Shown in pieces: positions 6,456 through 61,260 of a stretch of DNA of 64,000 bases. The position numbers and the translations under genes are program-made. This DNA is from Artemia franciscana (lineage: Eukaryota; Arthropoda; Branchiopoda; Anostraca; Artemiidae). The stretch's first letter is position 1; every line of letters begins with the position of its first letter. Below the pieces are notes generated by a model that was not told the origin of the DNA, did not search any database, and saw only the letters and a list, made by a program, of their open reading frames with translations. The stretch is taken from positions 48,023,490 through 48,087,489 of the forward strand of contig NC_088866.1 in NCBI RefSeq assembly GCF_032884065.1, written 5' to 3'.

Positions 6456-6562
6456 ATTTCACTCACGGCTCGGCATCAGTCCAAAAACAATTAAGTGAAA
6501 AAGGTATATCCACAGAGAAGTTCTCAATAAGCACAATTATGAAATGATCCGCACTAATTTTC

Positions 6563-7975: not shown

Positions 7976-9333
<1,358 letters not shown>

Positions 9334-9871
9334 TGAGGGGATAATCAGTAAACGTCTGGGACCTCCAGGAAAATCTTATGCTAAGATCAGTAAGCATTCA
9401 AGTGATGTGTTAGTGAACAAAAAACTTGAGCCTGGTACAAGAGTTACTATAAAACTTGAACCAATAAAACCCCAAGAAAAATTTCGAAAAGGACAAGTAG
9501 TATCCCCATTGACACCCCTAGAAACAACTGGAGAATATTGGGGGTACCAAGTCCGTCTTGCCGACAGTCTAACAACTGCAATGAGCCAGTCATCTTTCAA
9601 GGAAGGCTATGACCTCATAATTGGTACTTCAGAACGTGGTAAGGATGTTGACGACGTCAGATTTCCAGATTTCAAGCATGCTTTAATTGTTTTTGGGGGA
9701 GTGAGAGGCCTGGAAGAGGCTGTAGAAAATGATGACGCAGTAACCACCTCAGATCCAAGTGATTTGTTTGGATTTTATATTAATATTTGTCCGAATCAGG
9801 GATCTAGGACGATAAGGACTGAAGAAGCAGTTTTCATAGCTTTATCTGTTCTACGGGATACATTTTTTTGA
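9334..9871 (+). CDS. SPOUT1: SPOUT1 (C9orf114/CENP-32) RNA methyltransferase, terminal exon
   Basis: This exon encodes the C-terminal 179 or so residues of the SPOUT-family putative RNA methyltransferase known as C9orf114 or CENP-32, linked to centrosome and kinetochore function in vertebrates. Family landmarks are LEPGTRVTIKL, YWGYQVRLA, GYDLIIGTSERG, FKHALIVFGGVRGLE, and the terminal SPOUT knot CPNQGSRTIRTEEAVFIALS, which binds S-adenosylmethionine. The exon starts after the acceptor AG at 9332-9333. Its first base is the third base of a codon, so an upstream exon ending in CG would give the Arg expected before EGI. The stop is at 9869-9871. An ATG at 9245 lies in the intron and is not the start. 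Upstream exons lie outside the window or were not recognised. Known: family. Inferred: function here. Confidence 0.92.
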
Positions 9872-14745: not shown

Positions 14746-15541
14746 TTTTTATTTAACACTCTTGAAGGACAGAAATACTAAATGGCAGAATAGTATTTTA
14801 ATTTTGAATATTAAGTTAATGAGGCAGTAATTTTCTTATAAGAAAGTATCCAAATTTTGCTATGCTATTAGTTAAAATTGGCTGCAACCATGGGTACTTT
14901 ACTCGCATGAAAGCAGTGCTTAGGAAAATATTTTAAGATTTCAACTTAAAGGCAACTGTTAGCTTTCTCATGGAATATAAATTTCGTCTAAATTCAAAAC
15001 CTCCCCTGAAAACCAAATACCCAGCGCTATCTATAATTTGTACTGATTGATTATTGTGGTGCTAGGTATGCAAGTTAAAGACTACTACCAGGAGATCAAG
15101 CTTTGCTCCTTGAAAAGAAAGACAGTCTTTTTTTTTTTTTACAGAATAATTTCAATTTCATTTTCACATATTCTGTAAACCTTGTTGCATATTTATACCT
15201 ACAAATTATTCTACACTGTCGACAATCAAATTATATCGCAGTATACTTTTAAAATATTTTAAAAAGGCTTTTATTAGGTAGCATGCCAATTTTCAGAAAG
15301 AAAATATAGTACTGTTTTCGAGAAAAAAAATACGGATAAATAAAAAAATATACGTGTTGGCTATAAGAACTAACCGCTTTTGCAGGGGGGTATGGTACAC
15401 CACTAAGTGTATTTTAGGGTCTTAAATCTATTTTTGCGTGCGTTTTAAGAATATATTTGAGAGGAGGTTCCTTTATTTAATATGAAGCATCCCCCTTCTC
15501 ATGTTCAGGTATAATGTTATAAATATTTCAGAAAAATTGAA
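14746..15541. other. Region upstream of NHEJ1
   Basis: No gene or clear promoter motif seen. There is an in-frame stop (TAA) at 15512-15514 ahead of the NHEJ1 ATG. A TTTCAG at 15526-15531 could be an acceptor for a 5' exon not identified here. Confidence 0.4.
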
Positions 15542-15688
15542 ATGACTCCTTGGGTGAAGTGGAGCGAATCTTCAGATTTGTGCTTTAAATTTTCCTCTGC
15601 TGAAAGCTCCTATTCCATAAGCTTTACTAATTTAAGCTGTGTCTGGAAGGAAGAGAAGACCGACGATGAGATTAGTCAAAAATCTGAG
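15542..15688 (+). CDS. NHEJ1: NHEJ1/XLF exon 1 (residues 1-49)
   Basis: NHEJ1 (XLF, Cernunnos) is the nuclear scaffold that, with XRCC4, bridges DNA ends for ligase IV in non-homologous end joining. This exon encodes MTPWVKW..., matching the family's MxPW start of the globular head, then LSCVWKEE. The GTAAGC donor at 15689 follows Glu49. The exon is 147 nt, phase 0, and joins exon 2 at 21850, also phase 0. Six exons join without a frame break to about 276 aa, close to the vertebrate length of 299. Vertebrate XLF has about ten residues before this Met, and TTTCAG lies just upstream (15526-15531), so a short upstream exon is possible. Confidence 0.88.
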
Positions 15689-21849: not shown

Positions 21850-22053
21850 AACTTAAATCCATCAATCGAAGCTTCTAACAAACGTATTACCTCCATTGTG
21901 GGATCCGTAGTGAATGATGAGAAAGCCAGACAGAGTTCCTATGTTTATTTGTCTGAAGATGGTAACCGAAAACTGGTTATAAAAATGGAGCAGCGCCTTG
22001 AAAATCTTCCTTTTGTTTGGGAATTTGAGCCTGAGCTCCAAACGAAAGAACAG
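21850..22053 (+). CDS. NHEJ1: NHEJ1/XLF exon 2 (residues 50-117)
   Basis: 204 nt, phase 0 at both ends. It encodes NLNPSIEASNKRITSIVGSV and ends LENLPFVWEFEPELQTKEQ. The LPFxWxF signature closes the XLF head domain before the coiled coil; in vertebrate XLF this region contributes to the XRCC4 contact. The acceptor AG is at 21848-21849 and the donor CAG|GTTGGT at 22054. An upstream ATG at 21736 in the same frame is intronic. Confidence 0.93.
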
Positions 22054-24528: not shown

Positions 24529-24667
24529 TTGAAGGAAGATATTGTATTACCGCTATTATACAGTTTGGTTGAAATGGAATATAGAGAAAGGGAATTGATC
24601 CACATAATCAAGAGGAAAGACGCAGAAATAGAAGATTATAAAGCGACCGGAGCTAAGGTTTCCAGAA
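24529..24667 (+). CDS. NHEJ1: NHEJ1/XLF exon 3 (residues 118-163)
   Basis: 139 nt, entering in phase 0 and leaving one base over. It encodes LKEDIVLPLLYSLVEMEYRE, then KRKDAEIEDYKATGAKVSR. This is the long dimerisation helix of XLF with its conserved KDxEIxDYxxxGA motif. The acceptor is TATTTCAG at 24521-24528. Of two possible donors (24658 and 24668), only AGAA|GTAATG at 24668 gives the phase that exon 4 needs. Confidence 0.92.
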
Positions 24668-26108: not shown

Positions 26109-26278
<170 letters not shown>

Positions 26279-26442: not shown

Positions 26443-27240
26443 TTAGATGCATTTTCTTAAAGCTAATCTTGCTTGTTTAGCAGCCTGTCTCAAAGGCCTT
26501 TTCGTAGTTGGTTCAGTACTATTATAAATCGGTTTAGTAAAATATTTTGTTAGATCATTTTTAATTAAATTTGAGTATAAAGAATTTAGTGAGTATTCCC
26601 CCAAGTCCCTGTTCAAAGAAATATTATTATTTATTTTGAAATTAATTTCGATTGATTCTCGAACTACCTGTTTTATTCCCAAATCATTACTAATGAGTGA
26701 AGAGTTTTCAAAAAGCATCATGTGGGACGGATTATTAAATATATGCCAACCTAAAGCAGAATCAATGGATTTGTTGGAACTATTTGAAATTAAGGCCTTG
26801 TCTATGTCATTTTTATGCTGTTGTAACCGTTTGTCTAGATTCTGATGAGTCCTGCCGACATAGTATTTTCCGCAATCACATGGTATTTGATAGACCCCTC
26901 TTTGGCGAGTAACTGGGGTCTTATCTTTACCCGAATTTAAGAAATTGATGATTTTAAAATTATTAGTAAAAACTACGTACAGATTATTTTTTGTGCAAAC
27001 ATTTTTTAATTTTGTTGTGATCTTTGGGATATACGGAAGATAGACAATATTTGAGGGCTTATCAGTAGCCTCACATTGTGAAGTATCTTCTTCGATTTTA
27101 CAAGAATGTCTTTTTATTCTACGGTTAACTATTTTATTGACAAAAGGAATGGGGTATCCATTACCAAAAAGAATATCTCTGATAAAGTTTATTTCTGCAT
27201 TTATATATTAATTGGAGCAAATATTCAGGGCACGATCAAT
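26443..27240 (-). pseudogene. GIY-YIG endonuclease half of PLE-C1, disabled
   Basis: Nearly identical to the intact C2 endonuclease at 29467-30282. The TCA Ser codon of C2 is a TAA stop at 27208-27210. The frame is also offset from the reverse transcriptase by one extra C in a seven-C run (seven G on the plus strand, about 27270-27277). The RT and endonuclease halves are thus separated by a homopolymer slip plus a nonsense codon. Confidence 0.85.
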
Positions 27241-27262
27241 GAGGGAAGTTACAACTGCTCTT

Positions 27263-29056
27263 TTAACTTGTGGGGGGGTGATTTGAATTAAAGTGAAGAT
27301 ATCTATTGTTTTGTGTTGGCTTTCGATATATAGTAAAATCCAGTTCATCAGAATTGCGAATAATTAATACATCTAAAAACGGAAGTTTATTTTCAATTTC
27401 AACTTCTAGGGTGAACTGCAAAGTTCGGTCATAAGTGTTAAGATGATCTAAGAAGCCCCGAAGCTCAGCTTCCCCATAATTCCAAAGTGAAATTACGTCA
27501 TCCATGTAACGACCCCAATAGACGTGTTTTAAAAAATAAGAACTCAATGCCCAATTCTCAAAATTCTCGACGTAAATATTTGCTAGTAGCCCGGATAAAG
27601 GTGCTCCTATGGGTAACCCATTTTTTTGCTGATAAAAAGAATCGCGAACTTGAAAATACATAGAAAACTTATTACAAATTTTAACAAGAGTCATTAAAAC
27701 TTCACAATCAATTCCTGTCGCTGAAGTCTCGATCAAGTGGTAATTTTCTTCTATTTTGTTTTTTAATAATTCCTCTGAAATAGTTACATCTATATTTGTA
27801 TAGATTGAAACACTGTCGAAACTACTGACTATTGTGTTTTCTGAAATACTTGTGTTGCTAAGTTTTTTAACCAAATCTGCCGAGTTACGAATATAGGGAT
27901 TTTGAGAATACAGTAAAGGTTTGCAAGCTGTACAAAGCCATTTTCCAATATTGGCAACGGGGGCTTTAGTACAAGCTACGATAGGTCTTAAGGGAATACC
28001 CTGTTTATGTATTTTTGGTAAACTGTAGAGTTTAGGACAGAAACTACCACGGGGAAAAAATTTATTGTATAGTTGTGGGGTGATTTTACCATTTTGTTTT
28101 AGCTTCTTTAATTCATTTATAATATTATTAGTGAACTGATCAGTAGGATCATGAGTTATTGTTTGATATGTAATTGTGTCATTTAAATGCGAAAGAATTT
28201 TGTTGTCATAGTCTGTCGTATTCATGACAACAAGTGAATTGCTTTTGTCTGCTTTAGTTATTATAATAGAAGGATCTTTTCGGAGATTAGATAGTATTTT
28301 TATGTCATGCAAATTTTCCGGTGTGGAAATAGTAGGAGGCTTAAACTTTTTTTGGCTTTTATAGAGGATATTTATAAGACCAGATCTAACTTCATCCGGG
28401 TTAGAGACAGAAGGATAGTGTTTATGCAAAGCGGACTCTAGAGAGGAAACTATATCTGCCACAGGAACCTGTTTCGGTAGAAAAGAAAATTTTGGACCTT
28501 TTTCTAGTGTTTCGATTTCCTGGGGTTCCAATGTTTTAGAAGAGAGGTTAACGATAGCAGGTCCAGGAGTGAATCTTGGAGAATAAATACGGTTTCTCAT
28601 CGAAGATTCATTTCGTAAGCCTTCCAATTTTTTATAGAGGCGTTCCTTGGACAAGCGAAAATCGTGGCTAAACAAATTCTTTTCTAATCTAACAACTTGA
28701 GCAAAATCAACGGTGGACAGGTTTTCCAGCAAAAAAGTTTCCAACGATTTTCTCTCTGAAGAAATAATATGTCGTTTCTGTTTTTTGTCCTTAATAATAT
28801 GGACTAGGGTTTTTAACTGTAGTGTATGGGCAAATTGCGCTTGTTTCCGGGTATTTAAATGTAATTTATATCTTAAAGACTTGGGAATAAGGTTTTCATT
28901 TCTACAGGATTCTAAAAAATTTTGTTGATTGATAATATTAGCATGTTTTTTACCTAGACTAATAAAATAAAAGATATCATAGGTCAACTGCTCCCCATAA
29001 GCTAGACGAAAATAGCGACGAAGACCACACTGCCTTTCCATAACAAACAAATACAA
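27263..29056 (-). CDS. Penelope-like reverse transcriptase (RT half of C1)
   Basis: A 597-aa open frame. It starts inside the terminal repeat; MERQCGLRRYF after the first Met gives an alternative start. Reverse transcriptase landmarks in order are KLYSLPKIHKQGIPLRPIV, SFDSVSIYTNI (motif A), NGLPIGAPLSGLLANIYVE (motif B), YWGRYMDDVISLW (motif C with catalytic DD), ENKLPFLDVLI and YRKPTQNNRYLHFNSNHP. These are diagnostic for PLE reverse transcriptases, which are related to telomerase RT. In intact PLEs the frame continues into a GIY-YIG endonuclease; here it ends early at the C-run slip near 27270. It lies antisense within NHEJ1 intron 3. Confidence 0.93.
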   Translation of the reverse strand: MYLFVMERQCGLRRYFRLAYGEQLTYDIFYFISLGKKHANIINQQNFLESCRNENLIPKSLRYKLHLNTRKQAQFAHTLQLKTLVHIIKDKKQKRHIISSERKSLETFLLENLSTVDFAQVVRLEKNLFSHDFRLSKERLYKKLEGLRNESSMRNRIYSPRFTPGPAIVNLSSKTLEPQEIETLEKGPKFSFLPKQVPVADIVSSLESALHKHYPSVSNPDEVRSGLINILYKSQKKFKPPTISTPENLHDIKILSNLRKDPSIIITKADKSNSLVVMNTTDYDNKILSHLNDTITYQTITHDPTDQFTNNIINELKKLKQNGKITPQLYNKFFPRGSFCPKLYSLPKIHKQGIPLRPIVACTKAPVANIGKWLCTACKPLLYSQNPYIRNSADLVKKLSNTSISENTIVSSFDSVSIYTNIDVTISEELLKNKIEENYHLIETSATGIDCEVLMTLVKICNKFSMYFQVRDSFYQQKNGLPIGAPLSGLLANIYVENFENWALSSYFLKHVYWGRYMDDVISLWNYGEAELRGFLDHLNTYDRTLQFTLEVEIENKLPFLDVLIIRNSDELDFTIYRKPTQNNRYLHFNSNHPPTS

Positions 29057-29161
29057 CGTAGAGACAATAGGGAAAATTTCAAGACAGTGGAAATTATTTC
29101 TGTAGATATTTCGGCCCTATGTCAAAGGGCCGTCTTCAGCACAATACAAGAATAAGAGAGA

Positions 29162-29164
<3 letters not shown>
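28997..29164 (-). repeat. PLE-C2 terminal repeat
   Basis: The second copy of the terminal repeat, directly upstream of the C1 reverse transcriptase and overlapping its N-terminal codons. It differs from the 25946 copy by very few bases (for example GTCAAAGGG for GTCCAAGGG in the stem II loop). Confidence 0.9.
29100..29144 (-). ncRNA. Hammerhead-like core in PLE-C2 terminal repeat
   Basis: Same CUGAAGA, GGCCC/GGGCC, GAA-AUAU-C layout as 26045-26089, with one loop base changed and the stems intact. Confidence 0.42.
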
Positions 29165-29239
<75 letters not shown>

Positions 29240-29242
29240 ATA

Positions 29243-29296
<54 letters not shown>
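29165..29296. repeat. (TA)n microsatellite in PLE-C2
   Basis: TA array with TATCTATATCTA interruptions, between the terminal repeat and AAAAGAACTTACATC of the element's 3' UTR. Confidence 0.97.
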
Positions 29297-29301
<5 letters not shown>

Positions 29302-29466
29302 ACTTACATCAAATTGTGAGGATTAAAACTGAATAATTAAAAACACTTTTTAAAACTTTTTTTTAAAAATAGCCCTAGCATCCTTACTTCAACGAAGTTC
29401 AACCAGGACTGGCGAAAAGAATGAAATGAGAATATAAGCTCATTCAAACTGAAGAGAATAAAATGA

Positions 29467-30282
29467 TTAGATGCAATTTCTTAAAGCTAATCTTGCTTGT
29501 TTAGCAGCTTGTCTCAAAGGCCTTTTCGTAGTTGGTTTAGTACTATTATAAATCGGTTTAGTAAAATATTTTGTTAGATCATTTTTAATTAAATTTGAGT
29601 ATAAAGAATTTAGTGAGTATTCCCCCAAGTCCCTGTTCAAAGAAATACTATTATTTATTTTGAGATTAATTTCGATTGATTCTCGAACTACCTGTTTTAT
29701 TCCCAAATCATTACTAATGAGTGAAGAGTTTTCAAAAAGTATCATGTGGGACGGATTATTAAATATATGCCAACCTAAAGCAGAATCAAAGGAGTTGTTG
29801 GAACTATTTGAAATTAAGGCCTTGTCTATGTCATTTTTATGCTGTTGTAACCGTTTGTCTAGATTCTGATGGGTCCTGCCGACATAGTATTTTCCGCAAT
29901 CACATGGTATTTGATAGACCCCTCTTTGGCGAGTAACTGGGGTCTTATCTTTACCCGAATTTAAGAAATTGATGATTTTAAAATTATTAGTAAAAACTAC
30001 GTACAAATTATTTTTTGTGCAAATATTTTTTAATTTTGTTGTGATCTTTGGGATATACGGAAGATAGACAATATTTGAGGGCTTATCAGTAGCCTCACAT
30101 TGTGAAGTATCTTCTTCGATTTTACAAGAATGTCTTTTTATTCTACGGTTAATTATTTTATTGACAAAAGGAATGGGGTATCCATTACCAAAAAGAATAT
30201 CTCTGATAAAGTTTATTTCTGCATTTATATATGAATTGGAGCAAATATTCAGGGCACGATCAATGAGGGAATTTACGATCAA
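29467..30282 (-). CDS. Penelope-like GIY-YIG endonuclease (C2, RT half missing)
   Basis: A 271-aa open frame with the C-terminal half of a PLE protein. It has a linker with SLIDRALNICSNSYINAE, then GVYQIPCDCGKYYVGRTHQN, where GVY and YVG are the GIY and YIG strands followed by the catalytic Arg. A conserved Glu lies in VVRESIEI. The tail ends RQAAKQARLALRNCI. In PLEs this domain cleaves target DNA to prime reverse transcription. The upstream RT half is absent (truncation near 30300), so the start Met is only the first in frame. The copy is intact where C1 has a stop. Confidence 0.88.
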   Translation of the reverse strand: MIVNSLIDRALNICSNSYINAEINFIRDILFGNGYPIPFVNKIINRRIKRHSCKIEEDTSQCEATDKPSNIVYLPYIPKITTKLKNICTKNNLYVVFTNNFKIINFLNSGKDKTPVTRQRGVYQIPCDCGKYYVGRTHQNLDKRLQQHKNDIDKALISNSSNNSFDSALGWHIFNNPSHMILFENSSLISNDLGIKQVVRESIEINLKINNSISLNRDLGEYSLNSLYSNLIKNDLTKYFTKPIYNSTKPTTKRPLRQAAKQARLALRNCI

Positions 30283-30364
30283 TGAGGGAAGTTACATTAT
30301 TCTTATTCTTCTTGTATTGTCTTCTTATTCTTGTATTGTGCTGAAGTACTTGACTTCAGATTAA

Positions 30365-32274: not shown

Positions 32275-33114
32275 GTAAAACATGCGAATATACAGCATTC
32301 TTGGCTGTTCCATTGTCTGTGCATATAAATAGATTGTTAGGTTTACCGACTCTTGAACATGCAACATATAATTGTCCATGGGAAAAACAATCTGTATTCA
32401 GATCTATACCTCATTATTCTAATGATTGCCCTTGAGCTTTGTTGATGGTGATTGCTAATCGAACATTCCCTGTGCCCCCGTCGTCATTTATATATCCCCC
32501 TGTGCCTCCCGGCGTCCCTGTTGTAGTTGTTTCCCTGTGTCCCGGTCGTCATTTGTGTCCCGGTGTCCCAGTCTGTAATTTCTCTTTGAGTGTCGCGGTC
32601 GTCATTTTTATTCCCTGTGTCCCGGTGTCCCAGTCGTCATTTTTGTTCTGATGTCTCGGTCTGTAATTTCTCTTTGAGTGTCCTGGTCGTCATTTATATT
32701 CCCTGTGTCCCGGTCGTCATTTGTGTCCCGGTGCTTTGTTGATGGTGATTGCTAATCGAACATTCCTTGTGTCCCGGTCGTCGTTTATATTCCCTATGTC
32801 CCGGTCGTCATTTGTGTCCCGATGTCCCGGTCTGTAATTTCGTCAGTCGACAAACATGACGTCAGTCGACACACAAACATGACGTCACTCGACACACAGA
32901 CCCACAGACAAACTCTTGAACATGCAACATAATAATTGTCCATGGGAAAACAATCCGTATTCAGATCTATACCGCATTTTTCTAACGATTGCCCTTGAGC
33001 TTTGTTGATGGTGATTGCTAATCGAACATTCTCTGTGTCCCTGTCGTCATTTATATATCCCCCTGTGCCCCCGGCGTCCCCGTTGTAGTTGTGTCCCTGT
33101 GTCCTGGTCGTCAT
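32275..33114 (-). pseudogene. Helitron Pif1-type helicase C-terminus, duplicated and broken
   Basis: The minus strand encodes NVRLAITINKAQGQSLEKCG, then IDLNTDC and VACSRV, the last motifs of Pif1/Helitron superfamily-1 helicases. One copy lies at about 33035-32895 and a second at about 32470-32275, where it extends into KPNNLFI and NAVYSHVL-like residues. A third short piece lies at about 32767-32731. Each is followed by GTCCCGGTCGTCAT minisatellite, and frameshifts break the second copy. Confidence 0.8.
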
Positions 33115-33295
33115 TTGTGTCCCGGTATCCCAGTCTGTAATTTCCCTTTGAGTTTCCCGGTCGTCATTTATATTCCCTCTGTCCCGGTGTCCCGGTCGTC
33201 ATTTGTGTCCCGGTCTGTAATTTCTTTTTGAGTGCCTTGGTCGTCATTTATATTCCCTGTGTCCCGGTCTTCATTTGTGTCCCAGTGTCCCGGTT
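32470..33295. repeat. Minisatellite of GTGTCCCGGTCGTCATTT type
   Basis: Irregular repeats of TCCCTGTGTCCCGGTCGTCA and CCCGGTCTGTAATTTCTC, interrupted by the helicase pieces at 32731-32767 and 32895-33035. Confidence 0.88.
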
Positions 33296-35689: not shown

Positions 35690-35834
35690 AACAGCTTGAA
35701 ACAAAGCCTTTCGAAGAATCCAAATTTGGTGAGTCGTTGAGTGGCATTCATCGGGTTGGACTGCAATCACCCTCGGATATTTTCTCAAAATCAAGTCCGA
35801 ATATATTTTGCAAGATATCACGTCTGATTGTTGA
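35690..35834 (+). CDS. NHEJ1: NHEJ1/XLF exon 4 (residues 164-211)
   Basis: 145 nt. Its first two bases complete the Lys codon begun in exon 3, giving SRKQLETKPFEESKFGESL, which parallels the xLKTEPFEExxF segment after the XLF coiled coil. The rest (HRVGLQSPSDIFSKSSPN) is a low-conservation, probably disordered linker. The donor GTAAGT at 35835 is perfect, and two bases carry over to exon 5. In vertebrates the C-terminal region is a phosphorylated flexible tail. Confidence 0.9.
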
Positions 35835-35840
35835 GTAAGT

Positions 35841-37272
35841 TTTTCCTTTTTTTTTCATGTAAAGGTCGAAAACTAAATTAATCATATTTTTAAAAATTTG
35901 GATGTTTGCCTTGTTTATGTGTTTTTACTATAAAACGACAACAAAATTTTGGAATTATGTAAAGAAAATATATACTCTAGCAATGTTTTCCTCCGATTAC
36001 TTAAAAATCAGGCAAAGAAATGGCTCTCCTCCCTCAAACCCAGATTCTGCCCTTACGAAACTTGCGAAGCTTTCTGTATTTGTGTTTCTTGGCTATCACT
36101 TTGTAGACTTTTACCGTCTTATACGTCAAACCCCACTAAAAATTGAATCTTTTTATGCAGTTGTTAATGGTTAAGCAGCCTATATGAAAGTTTTGAAAAT
36201 CGAAAATATTAGGAAACACCAAAATTATTCAAATTCATAAAACATATGGTTGGGTAAAACGTGTATAGTTACGTTTAAAGCCAATTAATAAAGCCTTTCT
36301 CCTGGCTTTTGTTCGTACAAAAGTGCCTTTGCTATCATCATACAGCATTTCTTAAGTCAGCCTTCCCCCAATAGTGAGCAGGGATTTTGTTGCGGATCTA
36401 TCGTAGCTTATAGAAAATCAGGTAGTTTCTCACTCAACAAAGGGTGGAGAAAGATCTTTCTCTTATACAACTTTTACATTTTGTAATTCATTGTAAGGCA
36501 TAGTGGGCATTGGGTAACCTCATCAGGGTTGCGGCAAAAGCATCCAGAACACTCCCAAGTACCAGTGGCAGACTTGAACTTGTCATAGGGGAAAGTGACG
36601 AAAATAGGGGGAGATCCTCCTCTCCTTGAATTGGGTGCAGCTTTCATTTGCATATATACAAAACGTTAAGAGAGAAAGAAACTGAAAAATATCGTCAAAC
36701 TTCGTCCATATTAATCGATTGATAAAAAAATCATTAAAAGTCATTAAACTGTTCTAAGTCATTAAATTAAGGATAGGAATTAAAATAAAGTAGGTGGTTG
36801 GCATCAAGCCATGGGTAATTGTAGAAAAAGCCAAGACAAATAGTCCGATTGAGTGAGAGGCAAATCTGGCATAAGTCCTTATTAGGATTACATAAAAATG
36901 AAGTCAGTGCGTTTGTTATAAAATAAGTGTATCTACCATCCGTTCATGCGTCATTCCTTGGGCAAAACTAAGGTAGATAGTCATAGAACTAAGATAGTTA
37001 TAGAACTTATAGTTTAATGACTTTTAATGAAAAATTGACAAATTACGTCATTATTCGTTCTTGGCGCAAGTTTTCCTCAGATCATTTTTTGACCTATTTT
37101 GATACAAAAGTTAAAAGGAGCAAACAAAATTTGATAATTTCGGACTGTAGATTTGGGTGTCTAAATTTTTGATTGGTAGAATATAAAAAAAAAAAAAAAT
37201 TCGTTATCATTTGTTAATCACTTAATAATTGCTATTTAAAAAATTTAATTCTCCTCTCATGGCATTTAAAAT
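35841..37272. other. NHEJ1 intron 4, 5' part; RepD copy near its middle
   Basis: No exon seen. About 36790-36900 is a dispersed repeat (RepD: AATTGTAGAAAAAGCCAAGA, GTGAGAGGCAAATCTGGCAT). It recurs at 51350-51460 (+), 59770-59890 (-) and partly at 46390-46440 (-). An A-run at 37188-37200 lies 70 bp before the FG/RanBD gene. Confidence 0.5.
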
Positions 37273-39585
37273 ATGGACTTTGAAGGAACTCAAATTTTGA
37301 AGGAGGTGAAAGGCGATGCGACTGACCTTTGTAAAGAATCAGTAGCTACTGCAGAAGCTCAAAATGCCGTTGAACAGGATACAAATACTCTTGACCAGCA
37401 AATAGCATTACTGTCTTTTGGTTCTGCGAAACCAGATGCAGTGACAACATCCACTTCAACTATTCTTAGTTCTCCGAAATTTAACTTTGGTCTTCCAACT
37501 ACTCCTACAACTACAGGCGATGCGACTGACCTTTTTAAAGAATCAGTAGCTACTGCAGGAGCTCAAAATGCCTTTGAACAGAATACAAATACTCTTGACC
37601 AGCAAATAGCATTACTGTCTTTTGGTACTGCGAAACCAGATGCAGTGACAACATCCACTTCAACTATTCTTAGTTCTCCGAAATTTAACTTTGGTCTTCC
37701 AACTACTCCTACAACTACAGGCGATGCGACTGACCTTTTTAAAGAATCAGTAGCTACTGCAGGAGCTCAAAATGCCGTTGAACAGGATATAAATACTCTT
37801 GACCAGCAAATAGCATTACTGTCTTTTGGTACTGCGAAACCAGATGCAGTGACAACATCCACTTCAACTATTCTTAGTTCTCCGAAATTTAACTTTGGTC
37901 TTCCAACTACTCCTACAACTACAGGCGATGCGACTGACCTTTTTAAAGAATCAGTAGCTACTGCAGGAGCTCAAAATGCCGTTGAACAGGATATAAATAC
38001 TCTTGACCAGCAAATAGCATTACTGTCTTTTGGTACTGTGAAACCAGATGCAGTGACAACATCCATTTCAACTTTTCTTAGTTCTCCAAAATTTAACTTT
38101 GGTCTTCCAACTACTCCTGCACCTACAGGTGGATTTTCTTTTAACGCCCCAGACGTTTCGAATTTGAAAATTCGCTCTGTTGCTGGAGCAGGAGAGAAAA
38201 GAGAAGAATCCAGGCCAGCTTGTCAGTTTTCTTTTAGTTCCAAAATCATGGAAGGCGTCAAACCGGCGATAATTCAACCCTCTAAGCTATTTGCATTTGG
38301 AACACCTACTGGTGCTGAAACTGGGGAGCAAAACAAGCCTGTGACTTCTGTTTCTGGAACAAGCTCTGCTTGTTCCATTAGTTCCATTAGAAGGTTCCAG
38401 GTTCCATTAGAACCTGGGACTGCCAAGTATGGCACCAGGACCCCAGTTAACTTGACAATTACGCCTATAACTAAGACGACAAGCGCTCTTGAGCTCGATA
38501 AAGGAACCAAGCCTATATCCTCTGCAATTGGAGCAAGTTCAGCTGGTAGTTTTCAGGTTGGAACCACTGCTACTCCGGTAGTAGTCCACTGCTACTGCTC
38601 CAGTTTTTTCCGGTCCACTGCTACTGCTACTTCAACCACAGCTCCTACAAAACCAACGGGATCATTAATACAACCAAAGTTCACAATTGGCAGCTCACAA
38701 TTAACTCCGAAACTCTCAGAAATTTTAACTGAAGAAAAGAAGAAAGAGGAGATAGCGAAGCCTAATATATCTGCTGGATTTACATTTGGTAGTCCCAAGC
38801 TAAGAAAACTGAAACCAGAAGACAAAACCGAACTGAAATCAGACAATGGAAAGAAGAAGAGGGAAGAATTAACATTAAAAAGCATATTAAAACGAAAAGA
38901 TACCTCTAAACCCGAAGAATCAACGGGTATGCTGTTTAGCAGTTTTACTGGTAGCAGAGAAGCAACGTATTTTAAGAAAACTGTCAACTTCAAAGGATTT
39001 CCTGTGAAGGATACTCCTGTGTTTGGTGTACCTAAAAAAGAACCCACGCCGTTAGCTGCATTCCCTGGCTCGATGGAAAAGAAGGTAGAAGCACCCGAAG
39101 AGGAGGTATCCGAAGAATTTTTCCCTAATGCTGAATTTAAGCCAGTGATTCCACTTCCAGACTTGGTGGAGGTCAAAACAGGAGAGGAAGAAGAAACAGA
39201 GCTTTTTTGTAACCAAGGAATTCTATATTGCTTCGATGCAGATTCCAAAGAATGGAAAGTAAAGGGCCGAGGCAATTTCAAAGTTTTAAGACACAAGAAA
39301 ACTGGCAAGGTGAGGTTCCTCATGAGGAACCATGAACTAATATTAAAAATCTGCTGTAACCACTTGATTACACCAGAGCTTGATTTAATGCCAATGAAGA
39401 ATTCTGACAAAGCTTTCACATGGTATGCCCAGGACTATTCCGAAGGGGAATTGAAGAAAGAAATACTTGCGTTGAAATTCAAGCTGGCTGACACAGCTAA
39501 GAAACTCAAACAGATTGTGGATTTAGTCAAAGAAGAATTGGCAAAACCAATACCTTTTTCACTGTTGAAAAAGATTAGTCGGTAG
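37273..39585 (+). CDS. FG-repeat protein with C-terminal Ran-binding domain, nested intronless gene
   Basis: An uninterrupted 770-aa frame in NHEJ1 intron 4, same strand. Residues 14-285 are four 68-aa repeats, each with ALLSFG and KFNFGLP, i.e. FG and FxFG nucleoporin motifs. More FG motifs follow (FSFNAP, FAFGTPTG, FTFGSPK). Residues about 640-750 form a Ran-binding domain: LFCNQGILYCFDADSKEWKV, GRGNFKVLRHKKTGKVRFLM, CCNHLITPELDL, FTWYAQDYSEGE. This is closest in pattern to RanBP2/Nup358 domains (xWKxRGxGxxKxLxH), less to Nup50. It would bind RanGTP and transport receptors. Lack of introns and the nested position suggest a retrogene. No zinc fingers or TPR domain are present. AATAAA lies at 39648. 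Full coding integrity argues for function. Confidence 0.88.
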   Translation: MDFEGTQILKEVKGDATDLCKESVATAEAQNAVEQDTNTLDQQIALLSFGSAKPDAVTTSTSTILSSPKFNFGLPTTPTTTGDATDLFKESVATAGAQNAFEQNTNTLDQQIALLSFGTAKPDAVTTSTSTILSSPKFNFGLPTTPTTTGDATDLFKESVATAGAQNAVEQDINTLDQQIALLSFGTAKPDAVTTSTSTILSSPKFNFGLPTTPTTTGDATDLFKESVATAGAQNAVEQDINTLDQQIALLSFGTVKPDAVTTSISTFLSSPKFNFGLPTTPAPTGGFSFNAPDVSNLKIRSVAGAGEKREESRPACQFSFSSKIMEGVKPAIIQPSKLFAFGTPTGAETGEQNKPVTSVSGTSSACSISSIRRFQVPLEPGTAKYGTRTPVNLTITPITKTTSALELDKGTKPISSAIGASSAGSFQVGTTATPVVVHCYCSSFFRSTATATSTTAPTKPTGSLIQPKFTIGSSQLTPKLSEILTEEKKKEEIAKPNISAGFTFGSPKLRKLKPEDKTELKSDNGKKKREELTLKSILKRKDTSKPEESTGMLFSSFTGSREATYFKKTVNFKGFPVKDTPVFGVPKKEPTPLAAFPGSMEKKVEAPEEEVSEEFFPNAEFKPVIPLPDLVEVKTGEEEETELFCNQGILYCFDADSKEWKVKGRGNFKVLRHKKTGKVRFLMRNHELILKICCNHLITPELDLMPMKNSDKAFTWYAQDYSEGELKKEILALKFKLADTAKKLKQIVDLVKEELAKPIPFSLLKKISR
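37312..38127 (+). repeat. Four tandem 204-bp units within the FG/RanBD gene
   Basis: Units begin GGCGATGCGACTGACC at 37312, 37516, 37720 and 37924: exactly 204 bp apart, in frame (68 codons). Units 2 to 4 differ by only a handful of bases; unit 1 differs slightly more. The sequence then diverges after GCACCTACAGGTGG. Confidence 0.97.
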
Positions 39586-39647
39586 AAAAATTGGTTCAAA
39601 GTCTTTTCAGTATGCACCAACAAAAAAAAATGATTTATAACTTTTAG

Positions 39648-39653
39648 AATAAA
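39648..39653 (+). promoter_or_regulatory. Polyadenylation signal of the FG/RanBD gene
   Basis: AATAAA 63 bp after the stop codon. It lies inside an NHEJ1 intron and could also cause premature polyadenylation of NHEJ1 if used. Confidence 0.55.
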
Positions 39654-39659
39654 TATGAC

Positions 39660-42015
39660 AGTATTTCAAAAAACTAGTACAACTATTTTATCAATCTTTG
39701 ACACCCACCCATGGGATATCTTATAGCATCCCCCCTCCATATGCCAGTAAAATCCCTAAGAATATACTTAGCAATTGAGAGAAGGATTTCGAATCCATGC
39801 TTAAAGCAATGCCATAGTCAAAGCGAAAATGCTTAGTTGACTGAATCATAACCAAGCACAACCATAGTCAAACCTGTTTAACAAAAAGCTCATAGATAAT
39901 GTCTTTCCTCTTGATTTTAACGTAAAACTAAATACACTAAAACTAAAATGGCAAGAATTCGGTTGAAAAACATCAACATTAATTTGTGTATATGAACACT
40001 AGTTTGTGTACATCAACACTAATTTGTGTATATGAAAGCTAGTTTGTTCTCAAGGATTATATAATATATAATATAGGATTATATAATAGGATTATATAAT
40101 ATATATAATCAAGGATTATATAATATAATATATATAATATATGTCTTTGCATCTTCTAAAATTTCGTTTATCTTTCTTCTTAAATTTTTGTTCTGATTGG
40201 TGAATCACAAAAATAATGCTCGAAAGGTAATCCTCGTTCAACTCTACAAATTTCACCATTATCTGTAATTGTGACTATAATTTTGCTCGAGCACAAAGCG
40301 AATGGCCTTTATTTGAGAAGCAATTAAGCCATTGCGAAGTCAATTTAATAACGTCCATAAAATGAACAGTGGCCTAGGTGCCGCCAAGAAAAGTCAGGGT
40401 TGATGCCCCACTGTTCTTTAGTAAAAAGGGAGACATTTAAAAGATGTGTGAAAATAGGAAAAAGAAAAATGCTCTCACTTAAGTACTGATGAAAGAAAAA
40501 TTTATGGCAGCGTTTGCACCGCCCCTTCTCACATCGGCGAAACCCTTGAGCAGTAGTAAAAGTTCAAAAAAATTTATTGCTGGCGTTAACTTTAGATCAC
40601 TTATCTTTTGGCCGAAAAAGTGTCACGAACTTTTTGAGGGCTTTCATGTTTCCACGAGAATGGAGAAAGGTCTATTCGATTGTTCGTCATCAAAAATAGC
40701 TTTTGTCATCTTTTGGTAAAGATCCTTATTTTTGTTTTGCAGAAATGTTTATTTTGCGAAGCGAAAGGATCAGGTACACAGGTATATATATAAATATGCT
40801 TATAAATAATGGTATTCCAACAGCAAAAAAAAGATATCAGCAGAAAATTTGGAAACACATTACATCTAGGATATTACAGTTGTCAGCTACCAGTTGTAGA
40901 AAATTGTACTTCAAATCTGGGCCCGACAATATTCATCAAGAAACAGAACCATCTGGTAATTAAATTCAGTTTCCAGCTCCAAATTCCGTAACAAAACTTA
41001 TTACCACCAATTCAGAAACTTTATATATATGCATTTCTCATAGCAACGTCTTTATAGTTATTTGGCAAGAACATTAGAAACAAGTTTTAAAAACAGTCAT
41101 TGGATCGCAACATATCTTCTTTTTTCTTTCTTTTTTTCTTTCTGGAACAAAAATCTCACATTTGATTACTAAACTAACGTTTGATTGCTAGCTTTTGAGT
41201 TTGTGCAGGAAAAGAAGAAAAAATATACAAAGGTAAAGCTATACGTTGACTATCCTCGAATTTATAGATTAAAGAAAAGAATATTCCAAGGGTCGTGAAG
41301 ACACTGATTACCCAATTTGCTTCCTCTTTTTTCTAACATTCTGAACTTCACATAACAAATTTTTAACATCACATCAAAAGACATCATAAACGTTACTAAA
41401 TACAATCCTGGGCTTGGATTTGTACAGGGAAGCATGGCAAAATGCACAAAAAGACCCAAAGACAGTTACTATCCAGTAAGATTCCAACAACTTATAAGTT
41501 CCACTCTTATGTACTGCGATAGCATAAACGACAAAGTAGCAGCACATTCACTGCTATATGCAAACCCAGTGGAACACTAAATAATATCCAAAAGAAAAGG
41601 GTTTATTACGCATATGAAGGGGGTTGGCCCCTCCTCAATACTTTGCTCTTTACATTAAATTGTTTTAGTACCTTTAAAAAACCTTCTTATTGTTCTAATT
41701 GAACGACCCTTGTGTTTCAGGAGTTATTTTTAAAGGATTGGGTCAAAATTCAAAGTACATCGTAAAGAGAGAGGTGTTGAGGAGGGGGCAACCTCTTTCG
41801 TATATGTAATAATTTTGTTTTCGCTTTGATTCTTTTTCATCTTGAGTCTTGCACTCTCTTCAGGCAATTTCAATATTTAGATAATATTGATAATATGTTG
41901 ATATTTAGATATCAACTGCGTCAGAATGACGGAAAAACTTTTCGAACGTCAGTTAGAATCATGCTTTTTTTCTTCATTAGTATTTTCTACTGAAAAGGGT
42001 TTCAAATGTAAGCAT
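39660..42015. other. NHEJ1 intron 4, middle; short RepA fragment
   Basis: No gene supported. 40055-40140 is a TATAATATA low-complexity patch. 41595-41830 is a RepA terminal stem-loop alone (arms with CTCCTCAATACTTTGCTCTT and GAGGTGTTGAGGAGGGGGCA). The frames at 40489-40991 show no recognisable domain. Confidence 0.45.
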
Positions 42016-47692: not shown

Positions 47693-49806
47693 CAGTGTTA
47701 CCACTATGTCAGATTTTTGTGACTTTTTTGGATTTTTCGCCCTCTTGTCAGAAAAAAAAATTGTGTCAGGCCTCGGAATTTTGTTGGATTCCTAGTAAAA
47801 TACGGATAATTGTCGGATTTACTTGAGAACGATTTTCAAACTACCGAAATGGGTGGGTTGTTCTCTCAGTGATTAAAAAGACCCTATCGCTATTTTAAGA
47901 AAGGCAAAAATTTTGAAAATTTGTTGCATTTTTGTTCTATAATAAGGAGTTTAAAATACAATTAGACCTCCTTGATGTAGTTGAGCGTTGTGATGGTAAA
48001 ATGGAAACCCTTTTCAACCTTACTTGCGATGTTCTTTAAGATATAAACATACCTACAGAGAACTGGAGTTGGATTCTGTGCGACCATGTGTAATACTATC
48101 TTTGGGTGTGATAACGTTGTTGAGGGCAGAATCAAAGACAGACTTCCATCTGTGATATGTGTCAAGTGCAGCAGAAATTCAATTCAATTAGTCGCTTGTT
48201 ATGCTTGCAAACAAGTGCCTAACAAATTGGAAGATCAGTTTCGCACAGTATATAGTCACTGCAGCATGAGTGCCAAATGACGCTCTGAGTTCAAATTGCA
48301 CCAGAAGTTTACAGACACCCTAGTCCTGAATGTGCTTGTCCCATGTCAGACATATACATACCATCTCTTCGGATGTCCGTTGACCGACTATTACATAATT
48401 GAAATGTACTTAGTAGCAACTTTCAGGGAGTCGCAGCTGAGGATCCATCTCACGCAAATGACAGGGTACCGCAAGCCCTAAAAAATCCACTGCTTCGGAT
48501 TTAATTTTAGTTCCAGCTCTATGTGCTGGAGCTGTTTACAGATTTTAATCTTCTTTTCCAATGTGAAAAACCTTTCTTTCGCAAAATAAAATCAGAGGTT
48601 GAGATACTTCTTATAAATCTGACCATGAATTTCATGAAGACTAGCTACATTAGATCAACCTCGCCATTGAATTTCAAACCTGACAAAACAAGTGAATACC
48701 TTCCAGCTGAAGGTGTGTGCATGGGGATGGCAGCTCACAGGTCTCTTCAAACCTTGAAGTCAAATCAGAGGGCAAAAGCATATGAACGTGAAGTGGGAGT
48801 CATCTATGAATGTGCTCGTAGGTTATACGTGGAGACGGTGAAGCAATTCAAACAGCGATTCTCGTTTGATGACGAACTGTTTACACTGTGTGAGATCCTT
48901 GATCCTACGAAAGCTTTGGAAATAGGTGCAATTGGTCCTCTGCAAAAGATTCTACAGAGATATAGCACAACGTCGTAAAACGGAAGAAAGATTGTAGAGG
49001 AATAGCGGAGTTTACTTTTTTTCGATCTTTAAAATTTGACAGCTGTCTGTGAGTTTTGGCGCCAAGTAGCTTCCATAAAAACACCAAATGGTTCTCAGAG
49101 GTTCTCTAACATAATCAGCATTCGCCAATACCTCCTGACCTTGCCATTTCCAAGCGTTATTGCAAAGCGGTTCTTTTCAACCTTAAAAGATGTTAAAACA
49201 GATTGTAGAAACTCGCTCAAAAGAGTGACCCTTACCTCACTTATGGAGGTAATGAGAGGTAATTACTATGGAGGTAATTACCTCACTTATGAGGTAAGAG
49301 TGACCCTTACCTCACTTATGGAGGCTAAGTTAGGCATGAAAAGAAAAAGACATTTGTCCCATGATTAAGAGGGGTGCTTAATAGTTTTATTTAAAACTGT
49401 AAAAGCCAACGCGATGGCTGAGGAGTGCGTTCAGTGTAGTTAAAAATGTGCAGCTAAAAAAAGAAAAAAAAATTGAGGAAAAAAGGAATTATATGAATTT
49501 TTTTTTAAGTATATAAGGTAAAAAAATAAAAGTGAGGGTGAATAAGGTGTGGATTTTTTTTTTGAATAGTTAAGATGTTGCTATTGCGGGAGGAGGAGCT
49601 GTAGGACAGACAGTGTAAAAGCTTGTCTTATAAAAAGAATGCGACAGAATATTGTCAGATTTTTCGGTTGGAGTCGGAAATTTGTTGGATTTTAGACCAG
49701 TGTGGTGTCGGGAAAAGTGTCGGATTTTCTATGGTCGGATGTTGGAGCTTTCAGACTTTGCAAACTAATCCATGGGGAATCTGGTAGGAACAAAGTGGAA
49801 ACATTG
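47693..49806 (+). mobile_element. hAT DNA transposon with exact 8-bp target duplication
   Basis: The left terminus CAGTGTTACCACT (47693-47705) and right terminus AGTGGAAACATTG (49794-49806) are imperfect inverted repeats (10 of 13). They are flanked on both sides by GGCTCTAG (47685-47692 and 49807-49814), the 8-bp duplication that hAT insertion makes. Subterminal GTCAGATTT / GTCGGATTT motifs recur at 47710-47820 and 49645-49745. A decayed transposase lies inside on the plus strand. It is 2,114 bp long, in NHEJ1 intron 5. Confidence 0.92.
48080..49368 (+). pseudogene. hAT transposase remnant
   Basis: Pieces in several frames. VICVKCSRNSIQLVACYACK and VPNKLEDQFRTVYSH (48150-48250) match the catalytic-domain insert of ZBED/hAT-like proteins. 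FKQRFSFDDELFTLCEILDP (48850-48905) follows. YLLTLPFPSVIAKRFFSTLK (49122-49185) is the C-terminal dimerisation domain. Frame breaks near 48280, 48520 and 48980, and an inserted repeat at 49222-49325, show that it is dead. Confidence 0.85.
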
Positions 49807-53889: not shown

Positions 53890-55565
53890 CAATATATTAG
53901 TTCTAGATAACTTCGAAGATTACACTGCCTTTCCATGACGAAAGTATAACAGTTCAAAATAGGGATGAAACCTTTTAATCGACTGTACAATTTTTAAGTG
54001 GATAGTTCGAACACATATACAGTGTTCATCATCAGCAGTAAAACTAAAAGACACAAATAAAAACAAACAAAATTTATACCCAATAAACTAATTACATATA
54101 GTTTATCGCTCTTATTTAATTTTTTCAATGCAACAGCGGAAGCAAATCTCCTTAACCTTTTCGGTTCCGGTTCATTAGATTTACCTGACATATCAGGTGG
54201 ACAGAGGTCATAGCTCTTAGGTGAGATGAGATCTACTTTATTTGACCTCAATAAATTATCATAAATTGAATTCAATCCAAATTCACTTGTATCTTTGTTT
54301 ATGGAATTATTCTTGAATATTGTTTTTTAATTTCGATTGTTTCCCTGAAAATTTGCTTTAAACCTTGGTCCCTAGAAATCAAAGAAACATTTTCAAACAA
54401 AATAAAATTATTTGGATAATTATAAATGAGTCCCGATAGAACCGACTTGAAGTCTTCTGGTTTGAAATTTTCTTTAAGGACGATGAAATATAATTATGGT
54501 GTTGCAGTAATCTCATTTTTAATTTCTGGTTAGTACGTCCCACATAAAAGCTTCCACAAGTACATGGGATTTTATAAATCCCACTTTGTTGCTCTGTGGA
54601 AGTTCGATCCTTTTCAAAATTTAAAAACTAGCCAAAGTGTTACTACCTCTTAAAGTTACCTTTAAACCATTATTTTGTAAAATTCTTTTTAAGTTTTTCA
54701 CTTAGCCCTGGAACATATGGTAAAAAACAAAAAACATCTTTCTTTTCTGTTGTTTCCAGAATATCGTTAGAAAATTTTAAAAATTTGCTCCTTCTTTTCG
54801 AAAAAGTCTGGTCAATTAACCAGCCTGGGTAATGGTTACTTATTAAATTTCTTTTAGCAACAATAATTCCTCCTCAATGAATTTTGGAGAACAAATTCTA
54901 AAAATGCGGTCAGTTAAGGATATGATTAAACCAATTTTTACTTGGCGAGCATGGCCGGAGAAGAACGACAAAAATCTATTATTGTTAGTAGGTTTTCTAT
55001 AAATTTTAAAATCCAGACTGTTTTCATTTTTTAAAAGGAGAACATCCAGAAATGGAAGTTTCTTATCCTCTTTCAATTCTATTGTAAATTTTAAATCACC
55101 TCCCCAGAAATCAAGATGTTCTAAAAAACCATTTAATTCATCCTTCCCATAATTCCATATTGAAATTATGTCATCCATATATTTTCCCCGAAATTTGTGT
55201 TTTAAAAAATACGAATCTAACGCTATTGTTTCATTATTTCCTACGAAACAATTTACTAATAAAGGACTTAAAGGGGCCCCCATGGGTAAACCATTTGCTT
55301 GTTCGAAAAAAACCCTCTGAATTGAAAAAAATAAGAGAACATATTGTACAAACTAACTAAATTCATAGTTACACCGACTTCCAAAACTGTTTCACCACTA
55401 ATTAAGTCCAAATTTCTTAATATCTTTCTTACAAAAAAAATTTTTGTGGCTTTTACATCAATACTCGTATATATTGATGCTATGTCGAAACTTGAGATTA
55501 TGGAATTTGAAGAAATTTTTACTTCTTTTGGTTTTTTTTACAAGTTCTGACGAATTCCTAATGTA
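53890..55565 (-). mobile_element. Divergent Penelope-like element PLE-D, minus strand
   Basis: A second PLE family. Its terminal repeat (about 53890-54040) shares CACTGCCTTTCCAT and the hairpin layout with PLE-A to C but has a different stem sequence. Upstream on the minus strand are a broken endonuclease (about 54080-54840) and a reverse transcriptase (54843-55560). It is cut at about 55565, where RepA copy 6 begins. Confidence 0.82.
54843..55560 (-). pseudogene. PLE-D reverse transcriptase, partial
   Basis: The 55283-54843 frame (146 aa) has MGAPLSPLLVNCFVG (motif B), HKFRGKYMDDIISIWNYG (motif C), DKKLPFLDVLLLKN and YRKPTNNNRFLSF, the PLE-specific order. Upstream pieces continue to about 55560 in other frames (for example SSNSIISSFDIASIYT-like near 55500, motif A). 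The RT N-terminus is missing. Confidence 0.85.
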
Positions 55566-60690: not shown

Positions 60691-60738
60691 TGGTACTAAT
60701 ATATTTATATAGCTGTATGATTGGGTTTTCTGTTTTAG

Positions 60739-60962
60739 AATGGGAGATAGAGTGGAAATTCCAGATGAAGAATTAACTATCCCACGTGCAGCCATCAACA
60801 AAATGATCAAAGAAATTTTGCCAAATATAAGAGTTGCTAATGAATCCAGAGAGTTAATATTGGCGTGCTGCACTGAATTTATCCATTTATTAGCCTCAGA
60901 ATCAAACGATGTATGTGCACAGCAACAGAAAAAGACAATTAGCCCTGAGCATATTTTAGCAG
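60739..60962 (+). CDS. DR1: DR1 (NC2-beta) first coding exon
   Basis: DR1 is the beta subunit of the nuclear NC2 complex, a histone-fold partner of DRAP1. It binds TBP on promoters and represses or redirects RNA polymerase II initiation; it is also an ATAC-complex subunit. The exon starts after the acceptor GTTTTAG (60738). The ATG at 60740 begins MGDRVEIPDEELTIPRAAIN, followed by KMIKEILPNIRVANESRELI and KKTISPEHILA, the near-invariant histone fold. The donor GTAAAT at 60963 leaves one base (G), fitting the Ala that normally precedes LESLGF. The remaining about 100 residues lie beyond the window. The acceptor just before the ATG implies a 5' UTR exon upstream. Confidence 0.95.
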
Positions 60963-61260
60963 GTAAATATCAATAGTTATCAGAATTCATAGGCCTAGTT
61001 CAAGTTTTTAGGAACTTTTGCCAAAAGTCAAAAGCTTCATCAACAATATTTGTTTTTTTGTAAAATATATACATATATATGTAAAATATATTTGATAATT
61101 TGAATGAGAAATACTGGTAAATTCCGTAAAATTTTGGATATTTTTTTAGGGAGAGGGACCCTAGGCTTCCTGTGTCTATAGGAAAGATGTTTTTAGGAAG
61201 AACTTAAAGGAAGTATAAACTTTACCTAGACAAAGTGAAGAATATATATTTTTTTGTACT

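Follow-up and report, generated by a model that had tools for sequence, protein, structure and literature searches.

A Nup358-like FG-repeat and Ran-binding open reading frame, with an antisense zinc finger beside it, in the NHEJ1 region of Artemia franciscana

The open reading frame and its Ran-binding domain

A 64,000-nucleotide stretch of the Artemia franciscana genome (RefSeq assembly GCF_032884065.1, contig NC_088866.1, positions 48,023,490 to 48,087,489 of the forward strand; hereafter the window, whose own numbering is used throughout) carries an intronless open reading frame (ORF) of 770 codons, from ATG to TAG (37273..39585, +). Its protein joins an FG/FxFG-containing part to a C-terminal Ran-binding domain (RanBD), and we discuss it here in relation to the nucleoporin Nup358 (RanBP2). 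The frame is free of stops over all 770 codons, as a preliminary description of this DNA had stated. On this strand the two remaining frames contain 52 and 55 stops across the same interval, so the openness of the frame is not due to chance. G+C content is about 0.31 at third codon positions and about 0.46–0.47 at first and second positions. The start codon is flanked by A at −3 and by G at +4 and follows an in-frame TAA at 37267–37269; an A15 run lies just 5′ of it, at 37185–37199. Past the stop codon the ORF has its own polyadenylation signal, also noted previously: an AATAAA at 39648..39653 (+), which lies between an A9 run at 39622 and an A6 run at 39668.

The FG/FxFG repeats that had been noted amount to 11 FGs, 6 of them in FxFG form. 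Eight of the 11 sit in four in-frame tandem units of 204 bp (68 codons) at 37311..38129 (+), which had previously been overlooked; each unit holds one SFG and one FNFG, and all eight FG cores are intact. When the protein was shuffled with one repeat unit kept and the RanBD removed, FxFG was clearly enriched (3 observed versus 0.13 expected, reached by 2 of 10,000 shuffles) and plain FG weakly so (5 versus 2.0, reached by 405 of 10,000). Between the units and the RanBD lies a stretch with short internal repeats (38372..38628, +). In three-frame translations of this stretch another frame gives more nucleoporin-like text from about 38584, a weak indication that compensated frame shifts may have been absorbed here. 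Repeat spacing does not support such shifts, as 4 of the 7 listed repeat pairs (38120–38700) are separated by non-multiples of three and 3 by multiples, which is the chance level.

The RanBP2-type Ran-binding domain of the preliminary description is confirmed by Pfam, whose RanBP1-type domain matches residues 633–752 (39169..39528, +) with E 8e-34; the five other families listed for this protein all fall under the cut-off, and the ORF ends 18 residues past the domain. Compared with chains of solved structures, the domain scores highest against RanBD1 of human and frog Nup358 (140–150 bits), while other Nup358 RanBDs of full-length chains reach 92–129 bits, mammalian RanBP1 about 98–107 and yeast RanBP1 94–98. 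Far lower scores come from fungal ABR034Wp, which we take to be a fungal Nup2 (36–39 bits), and from RanBP3 (about 20–21 bits). The 28 chains listed at E ≤0.01 include none named Nup50, so this is a ranking without Nup50. RanBP1 and RanBP3 were ruled out as sources by their lower scores than Nup358 RanBDs. Identity to each of the eight human and frog Nup358 RanBDs is 42–54%. The stretch just before the domain also resembles the one preceding human RanBD2 (score 46, reached by 16 of 2000 shuffles) and, more weakly, the one preceding RanBD4 (score 29, reached by 136 of 2000). Judged from these similarities, the ORF very probably descends from the 3′ part of Nup358.

The domain has nonetheless diverged from its vertebrate counterparts. 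In an alignment that we assembled by hand from printed pairwise alignments, with gap placement of our own, it agrees with the eight human and frog Nup358 RanBDs at 31 of the 41 columns in which these do not vary. The other ten carry the changes E623K, R648Q, K650I, R653C, E663V, R664K, I671V, R686N, V690I and A695C. As a control, each vertebrate paralogue was held out in turn: of the 44–48 columns invariant in the other three, 1–7 were changed, mostly to similar residues and with one gap. At positions 671 and 690 yeast Yrb1 also lacks the vertebrate residue, and 623 lies outside the compared yeast stretch. A mammalian RanBP1 fragment, which matches a RanBP1 chain of the PDB over its full length, contains RAKLFRF, WKERG, MRR and CANH. 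Drosophila Nup358 RanBDs may have Cys where vertebrates have the Ala of CANH, in which case A695C could be inherited.

Several of these changes may affect contacts with Ran or CRM1. The part of PMC3045386 drawn on here describes Ran contacts through the HFEPVV extension, the EWKER motif, the C-helix groove and basic residues near the DEDDDL tail, and assigns to Arg90, Lys88 and Lys130 of yeast RanBP1 the role of keeping the HEAT-9 loop of CRM1 inward. The Artemia domain reads EFKPVI for HFEPVV and EWKVK for EWKER, keeping the F, the P and the first V of the former and the first E, the W and the K of the latter. Changed are E663V, R664K, R648Q, K650I, R653C and R686N, and the position of R1284 is occupied by Lys. 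The strand-1 Arg that matches yeast Arg90 in our numbering is Gln648; this mapping assumes a Yrb1 length of 201 residues.

The antisense zinc finger and the NHEJ1 exons

About 0.7 kb 5′ of the ORF, on the opposite strand, lies an isolated nucleoporin-type (RanBP2/Nup153) zinc finger, DKFKSATGTWECSGCFCRNPDEVTQCPLC (36498..36584, −). This feature is new here and was not part of the preliminary description. A six-frame scan of the window for the strict RanBP2-type motif gives one match, at minus 36557–36498, and relaxing the pattern adds no other; the motif is absent from all 150 dinucleotide-shuffled versions of the window. The stop-free stretch with the finger matches human Nup358 (eight fingers together, E 1e-13; 14.4 bits for the best one alone), frog Nup358 (E 9.6e-7) and a Nup153 fragment (E 3.9e-7). 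The Pfam model Zn_ribbon_RanBP, whose cut-off is 27, gives only 14.9 bits; the unrelated Kringle model gives 18.2 bits and also stays under its own cut-off. Both flanks of the finger are stop-rich and without recognisable nucleoporin similarity, and the ten flanking stop-free stretches that were scanned hold no further pieces of Nup358. Between finger and ORF is a stretch of about 300 bp with perfect 20-bp inverted ends (36731..37030, no strand assigned), similar to a miniature inverted-repeat transposable element (MITE), whose ends have no other copy in the window at up to 3 mismatches.

As Nup358 has both zinc fingers and RanBDs, a common Nup358 source for the antisense finger and the ORF would be the simplest reading. 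A complete Nup358 was not encountered: the ORF has one RanBD, and neither the N-terminal TPR/oligomerisation part nor the set of four RanBDs of the full protein was found. Among 30 other chosen stop-free stretches (of 184 listed with at least 60 residues) there was no Pfam match to TPR or RanBD, and neither tblastn nor the motif scan returned another RanBD or another zinc finger in the window. An FG-cluster scan outside the ORF gave seven clusters, six with internal stops and the seventh at minus 25435. The earlier statement that the gene has no TPR or zinc-finger part thus applies to the ORF itself, which lacks a zinc finger, but not to the locus, where the antisense finger lies at 36557–36498.

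Upstream of the finger and the ORF we recognise four exons of NHEJ1 (XLF), all on the forward strand, which bears out the earlier statement that the ORF and NHEJ1 share a strand. The first contains a possible start codon and matches the XLF N-terminal domain (15532..15688, +; E 1.7e-7), as does the second, under the Pfam cut-off (21850..22053, +; E 4.4e-4). The third encodes the XLF coiled coil (24529..24667, +; E 1.2e-10). The fourth, a probable short exon (35690..35728, +) followed by the donor GTGAGT, is collinear with the others and in frame with the preceding one (tblastn E 0.61, no Pfam match), and sits 1.5 kb 5′ of the ORF. Each piece has CAG before it and GT after it. Joined together, the four give a single open frame and leave one extra base; two alternative ends for the third piece failed to join in frame. 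Downstream of the ORF no NHEJ1 exon was recognised in the window, and a scan for the basic tail of the last exon gave 18 strings, many with stops and none convincing. Because it is preceded by four in-frame NHEJ1 exons that end in the splice donor at 35728, the ORF probably lies within an intron of the gene, as proposed earlier.

The same arrangement could in principle be read differently, with the ORF as the terminal exon of a longer gene. That gene would be a real Nup358 whose upstream exons have escaped notice, or else NHEJ1 would have captured the ORF as an alternative 3′-terminal exon. The exon at 35690–35728 does end at GTGAGT with no further NHEJ1 exon found, and as the donor leaves one base, AGs ending before 37286, 37313 and 37337 would be compatible in phase. 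However, these candidate acceptors have 8, 5 and 10 pyrimidines among 16 positions, as against a background of 7.65 (standard deviation 2.5) and 13 for the acceptor of exon 35690. The in-frame TAA, the start context of the ATG and the lack of a second RanBD or zinc-finger motif in the window likewise speak against a longer gene, and we give this explanation very little credence. A fusion of NHEJ1 to the RanBD was set aside on account of its background-quality acceptors.

Origin of the locus and history of the open frame

We propose that the locus arose as a secondary copy of a Nup358 (RanBP2) gene, covering its 3′ half and probably made from mRNA. The sense part, comprising the FG region and the last RanBD, would have stayed open and translatable, and a zinc-finger piece from further 5′ would have landed inverted upstream of it, as happens in 5′-inverted insertions of long interspersed nuclear element (LINE) type. 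A retrocopy of the Nup358 3′ end was one of the origins suggested in the preliminary description. Descent from Nup358 holds up well, through the RanBD scores, the resemblance to the stretch before RanBD2 and the antisense nucleoporin finger; the RNA-mediated step is plausible and unproved, and we rate it as moderately probable. Its plausibility comes from the absence of introns in the ORF, the inverted piece upstream and the presence of reverse-transcriptase elements in the window. The antisense finger supports Nup358 parentage and would also suit a 5′-inverted retrocopy. In the part of PMC10359004 used here, Drosophila Nup358 is described as having fewer zinc fingers than the human protein and no cyclophilin domain, and the latter suits an ORF that ends just after the RanBD.

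A number of observations weigh against this proposal. Among exact matches of at least 8 bases between 36300–37320 and 39583–39900, none makes a convincing target-site duplication: the longest, of 10 bases, is poly(A), and the next, of 9 bases (37029 and 39585), pairs a site within the inverted-repeat element with one at the stop codon. No long poly(A) was found near the 3′ end beyond the A9 and A6 runs. In the portions of PMC2912911 consulted, mRNA retrocopies are not those associated with short duplications, and 5′ inversion is rare for Alu and SVA. The interval between finger and ORF contains no recognisable Nup358 coding DNA, which a simple twin-primed insertion would need, and the 300-bp inverted-repeat element accounts for only part of that interval. 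Compared finger by finger, the antisense one is nearer to a finger of Nup153 (27.4 bits) than to those of human Nup358, which speaks against certainty about a Nup358 source. Seven of the ten changed RanBD positions (648, 650, 653, 663, 664, 686 and 695) have the vertebrate residue in yeast Yrb1 as well. Lastly, 12 of the 68 codons compared across the four tandem units are variable, and 11 of these 12 differ nonsynonymously. The probability of at least 11 in 12 is 0.09–0.14 under neutrality, 0.008–0.015 at an omega of 0.5 and 0.0005–0.0012 at an omega of 0.3. The unit changes thus speak against an omega of 0.3 or less and not against neutrality, so that strong purifying selection on the units is unlikely; the test rests on 12 sites, and the changes may predate copying.

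The missing retrocopy hallmarks would be accounted for if part of a Nup358 with a single large 3′ exon had been duplicated segmentally at the DNA level and then rearranged, with its zinc-finger exon inverted. The finger, an isolated exon-sized piece with stop-rich flanks, fits this course of events as well. Neither intron-like nor parental flanking DNA could be demonstrated, and we regard such a duplication as improbable.

A more serious competitor, although still an unlikely one in our estimate, is a young non-functional retrocopy that is open only through recent insertion, its odd RanBD and nonsynonymous repeat differences having been inherited from a divergent parent Nup358. The changes among the repeat units are compatible with the neutrality that this requires. 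We simulated neutral decay starting from the present ORF, with half of the substitutions being transitions. With substitutions only, an unconstrained ORF was still open in 45–49% of runs at 1% divergence, 22% at 2%, 5% at 4% and 0.2% at 8%; with insertions and deletions at a rate of 0.12 per substitution, which is our assumption, these values fell to 5.5% at 1% and 0.25% at 2%. Low CpG would also be expected of a copy from a methylated gene. The observed/expected ratio is 0.49 in the ORF and 0.29 in the RanBD, compared with 0.67–0.79 in the flanks, and the ORF contains 48 CpGs, under the range of 51–74 (mean 61) in 500 synonymous shuffles. This depletion hints at methylation of the gene, in the parent or in the copy, but only weakly, because six other exon pieces in the window spread from 0.39 to 1.03. 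On the other hand, a young retrocopy should retain a poly(A) tail and a target-site duplication, and no convincing case of either was found. Also, the isolated finger in stop-rich DNA, beside a separate inverted-repeat element, suggests age.

How far the RanBD has changed bears on the same question. In simulations of 4000 runs at each of eight divergences, with substitutions only, the ORF was both open and changed at at least 10 of 41 RanBD sites in at most 1 run of 4000 at any divergence tried. The argument weakens if the parent already lacked some of the 41 residues, as an open frame with at least 5 changed sites was reached in at most 1.2% of runs. As a neutral ORF almost never drifts so far and stays open, the RanBD probably diverged in a translated gene, be it the present one or an already divergent parent, and a long purely neutral history of the ORF is unlikely. 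The lack of a convincing target-site duplication or poly(A) tail, together with the decayed setting of the finger, weakly favours translation while the RanBD changed over a recent copy of a changed parent. Whether the ORF is still a translated gene we consider evenly balanced. The earlier suggestion that it has been kept intact by selection is not borne out, given that its repeat units differ almost only nonsynonymously and its RanBD has lost strongly conserved residues, even though a long neutral history is unlikely too.

Possible function, related genes and other elements in the window

If the copy of the Nup358 3′ half is indeed an open gene, its product would be a soluble FG/RanBD protein without the N-terminal anchor, whose FG motifs would bind transport receptors. 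In its RanBD, the N-terminal extension still has its F, P and V, and EWKER its first Glu and its Lys. Because several conserved charged residues are gone, its RanGTP binding, or its action on CRM1 complexes, is predicted to be weaker than that of Nup358. Such a protein could weakly compete in, or buffer, Ran-dependent transport, perhaps with a germline-specific role by analogy with known nuclear-transport duplicates. We give this account as a whole, from a secondary Nup358 copy to a weakly competing soluble product, an even chance of being correct. A bolder version, in which 5′-inverted retrotransposition of the Nup358 3′ half gave rise to a lineage-specific, expressed intronless FG-RanBD protein whose domain was re-tuned, by losing conserved Ran/CRM1-contact residues, to RanBP3-like weak binding, turning a cytoplasmic export terminator into a soluble competitor or cofactor in nuclear transport, seems improbable on present evidence.

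The ORF resembles the 3′ part of Nup358/RanBP2 in the type of its RanBD, its FxFG motifs, the weakly similar stretch before the domain and the nucleoporin zinc finger nearby. It differs in having one RanBD instead of four, no N-terminal anchor and no cyclophilin domain, in being uninterrupted, and in the 10 of 41 vertebrate-invariant residues that are changed. The RGPD genes of great apes offer a parallel as secondary, fast-evolving RANBP2 derivatives. According to the text of PMC6920530 drawn on, they arose by segmental duplication and are under positive selection; the Artemia locus, by contrast, is a single intronless FG-RanBD ORF.

The sections of PMC8645118 used here report that nuclear-transport genes of insects are recurrently duplicated, in Drosophila mostly through RNA, with Ran, Ntf-2, importin-alpha and Nup93 as examples. 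Many of these duplicates are, like the Artemia ORF, intronless, and they are fast-evolving and testis-enriched. Among 30 nucleoporins examined in Drosophila, Nup93 was the only one with a duplicate, and the name Nup358 does not occur in that text, which also reports the involvement of nuclear-transport machinery in a Drosophila meiotic drive system (PMC8645118). RanBP3 is like the ORF in placing FxFG motifs before a single RanBD and in having lost the conserved strand-1 arginine (as described in part of PMC3045386), Gln648 in our case. The ORF differs from it in a RanBD that is Nup358-like by score (140–150 versus about 20–21 bits) and keeps the first Glu and the Lys of EWKER, so that RanBP3 may be taken as a functional analogy only.

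Among the papers listed in searches of the open-access literature (at most 20 of up to 458 hits each) we found no report of a short Nup358-derived FG-RanBD gene outside primates, and no close relative was confirmed among 33 pattern matches in viral contigs and 156 in prokaryotic genome contigs. If translated, the protein would be an unusual duplicate of an export-terminating nucleoporin, and its altered RanBD a natural test of the contacts needed to release CRM1 cargo. If the locus is merely a young retrocopy, it is a long open copy liable to be mis-annotated as a gene.

The remaining features of the window include several mobile elements. A LINE-like element at 2990–6458, presumably Jockey-like, comprises a reverse transcriptase (Pfam RVT_1; 2990–3619, −), an endonuclease within a 553-aa ORF (3724–5382, −) and a 374-aa ORF with no Pfam match (5337–6458, −). 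A second, long-ORF element (26446–30291, −), which we take to be Penelope-like, holds an RVT_1 reverse transcriptase (27266–29116, −) and a GIY-YIG nuclease (29470–30291, −); an ORF at 26446–27207 (−) looks similar to the nuclease ORF. Long TA repeats adjoin this element at 26110–26273 and 29165–29296. A broken relative with a sub-threshold RVT_1 match lies at 54846–55352 (−), and another was recognised by eye near 505–2369 (−), where the ORF 862–1296 has no Pfam match. A hAT transposase remnant at 49033–49365 (+) retains the C-terminal dimerisation region (E 5e-5); no Pfam match was obtained for the preceding ORF, 48511–48975. Two further exons belong to other genes: a putative RNA methyltransferase exon at 9197–9868 (+; Methyltrn_RNA_3, E 3e-49), presumably of SPOUT1, and, downstream of the NHEJ1 region, a histone-fold exon at 60713–60973 (+; CBFD_NFYB_HMF, E 7e-20), presumably of Dr1/NC2-beta. 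A satellite-like array at 12952–13798 consists of six tandem copies of a 141-bp unit with 95% matches, and minisatellite-like blocks at 32528–33294 are built of units containing TGTCCCGGTCGTCATTT.

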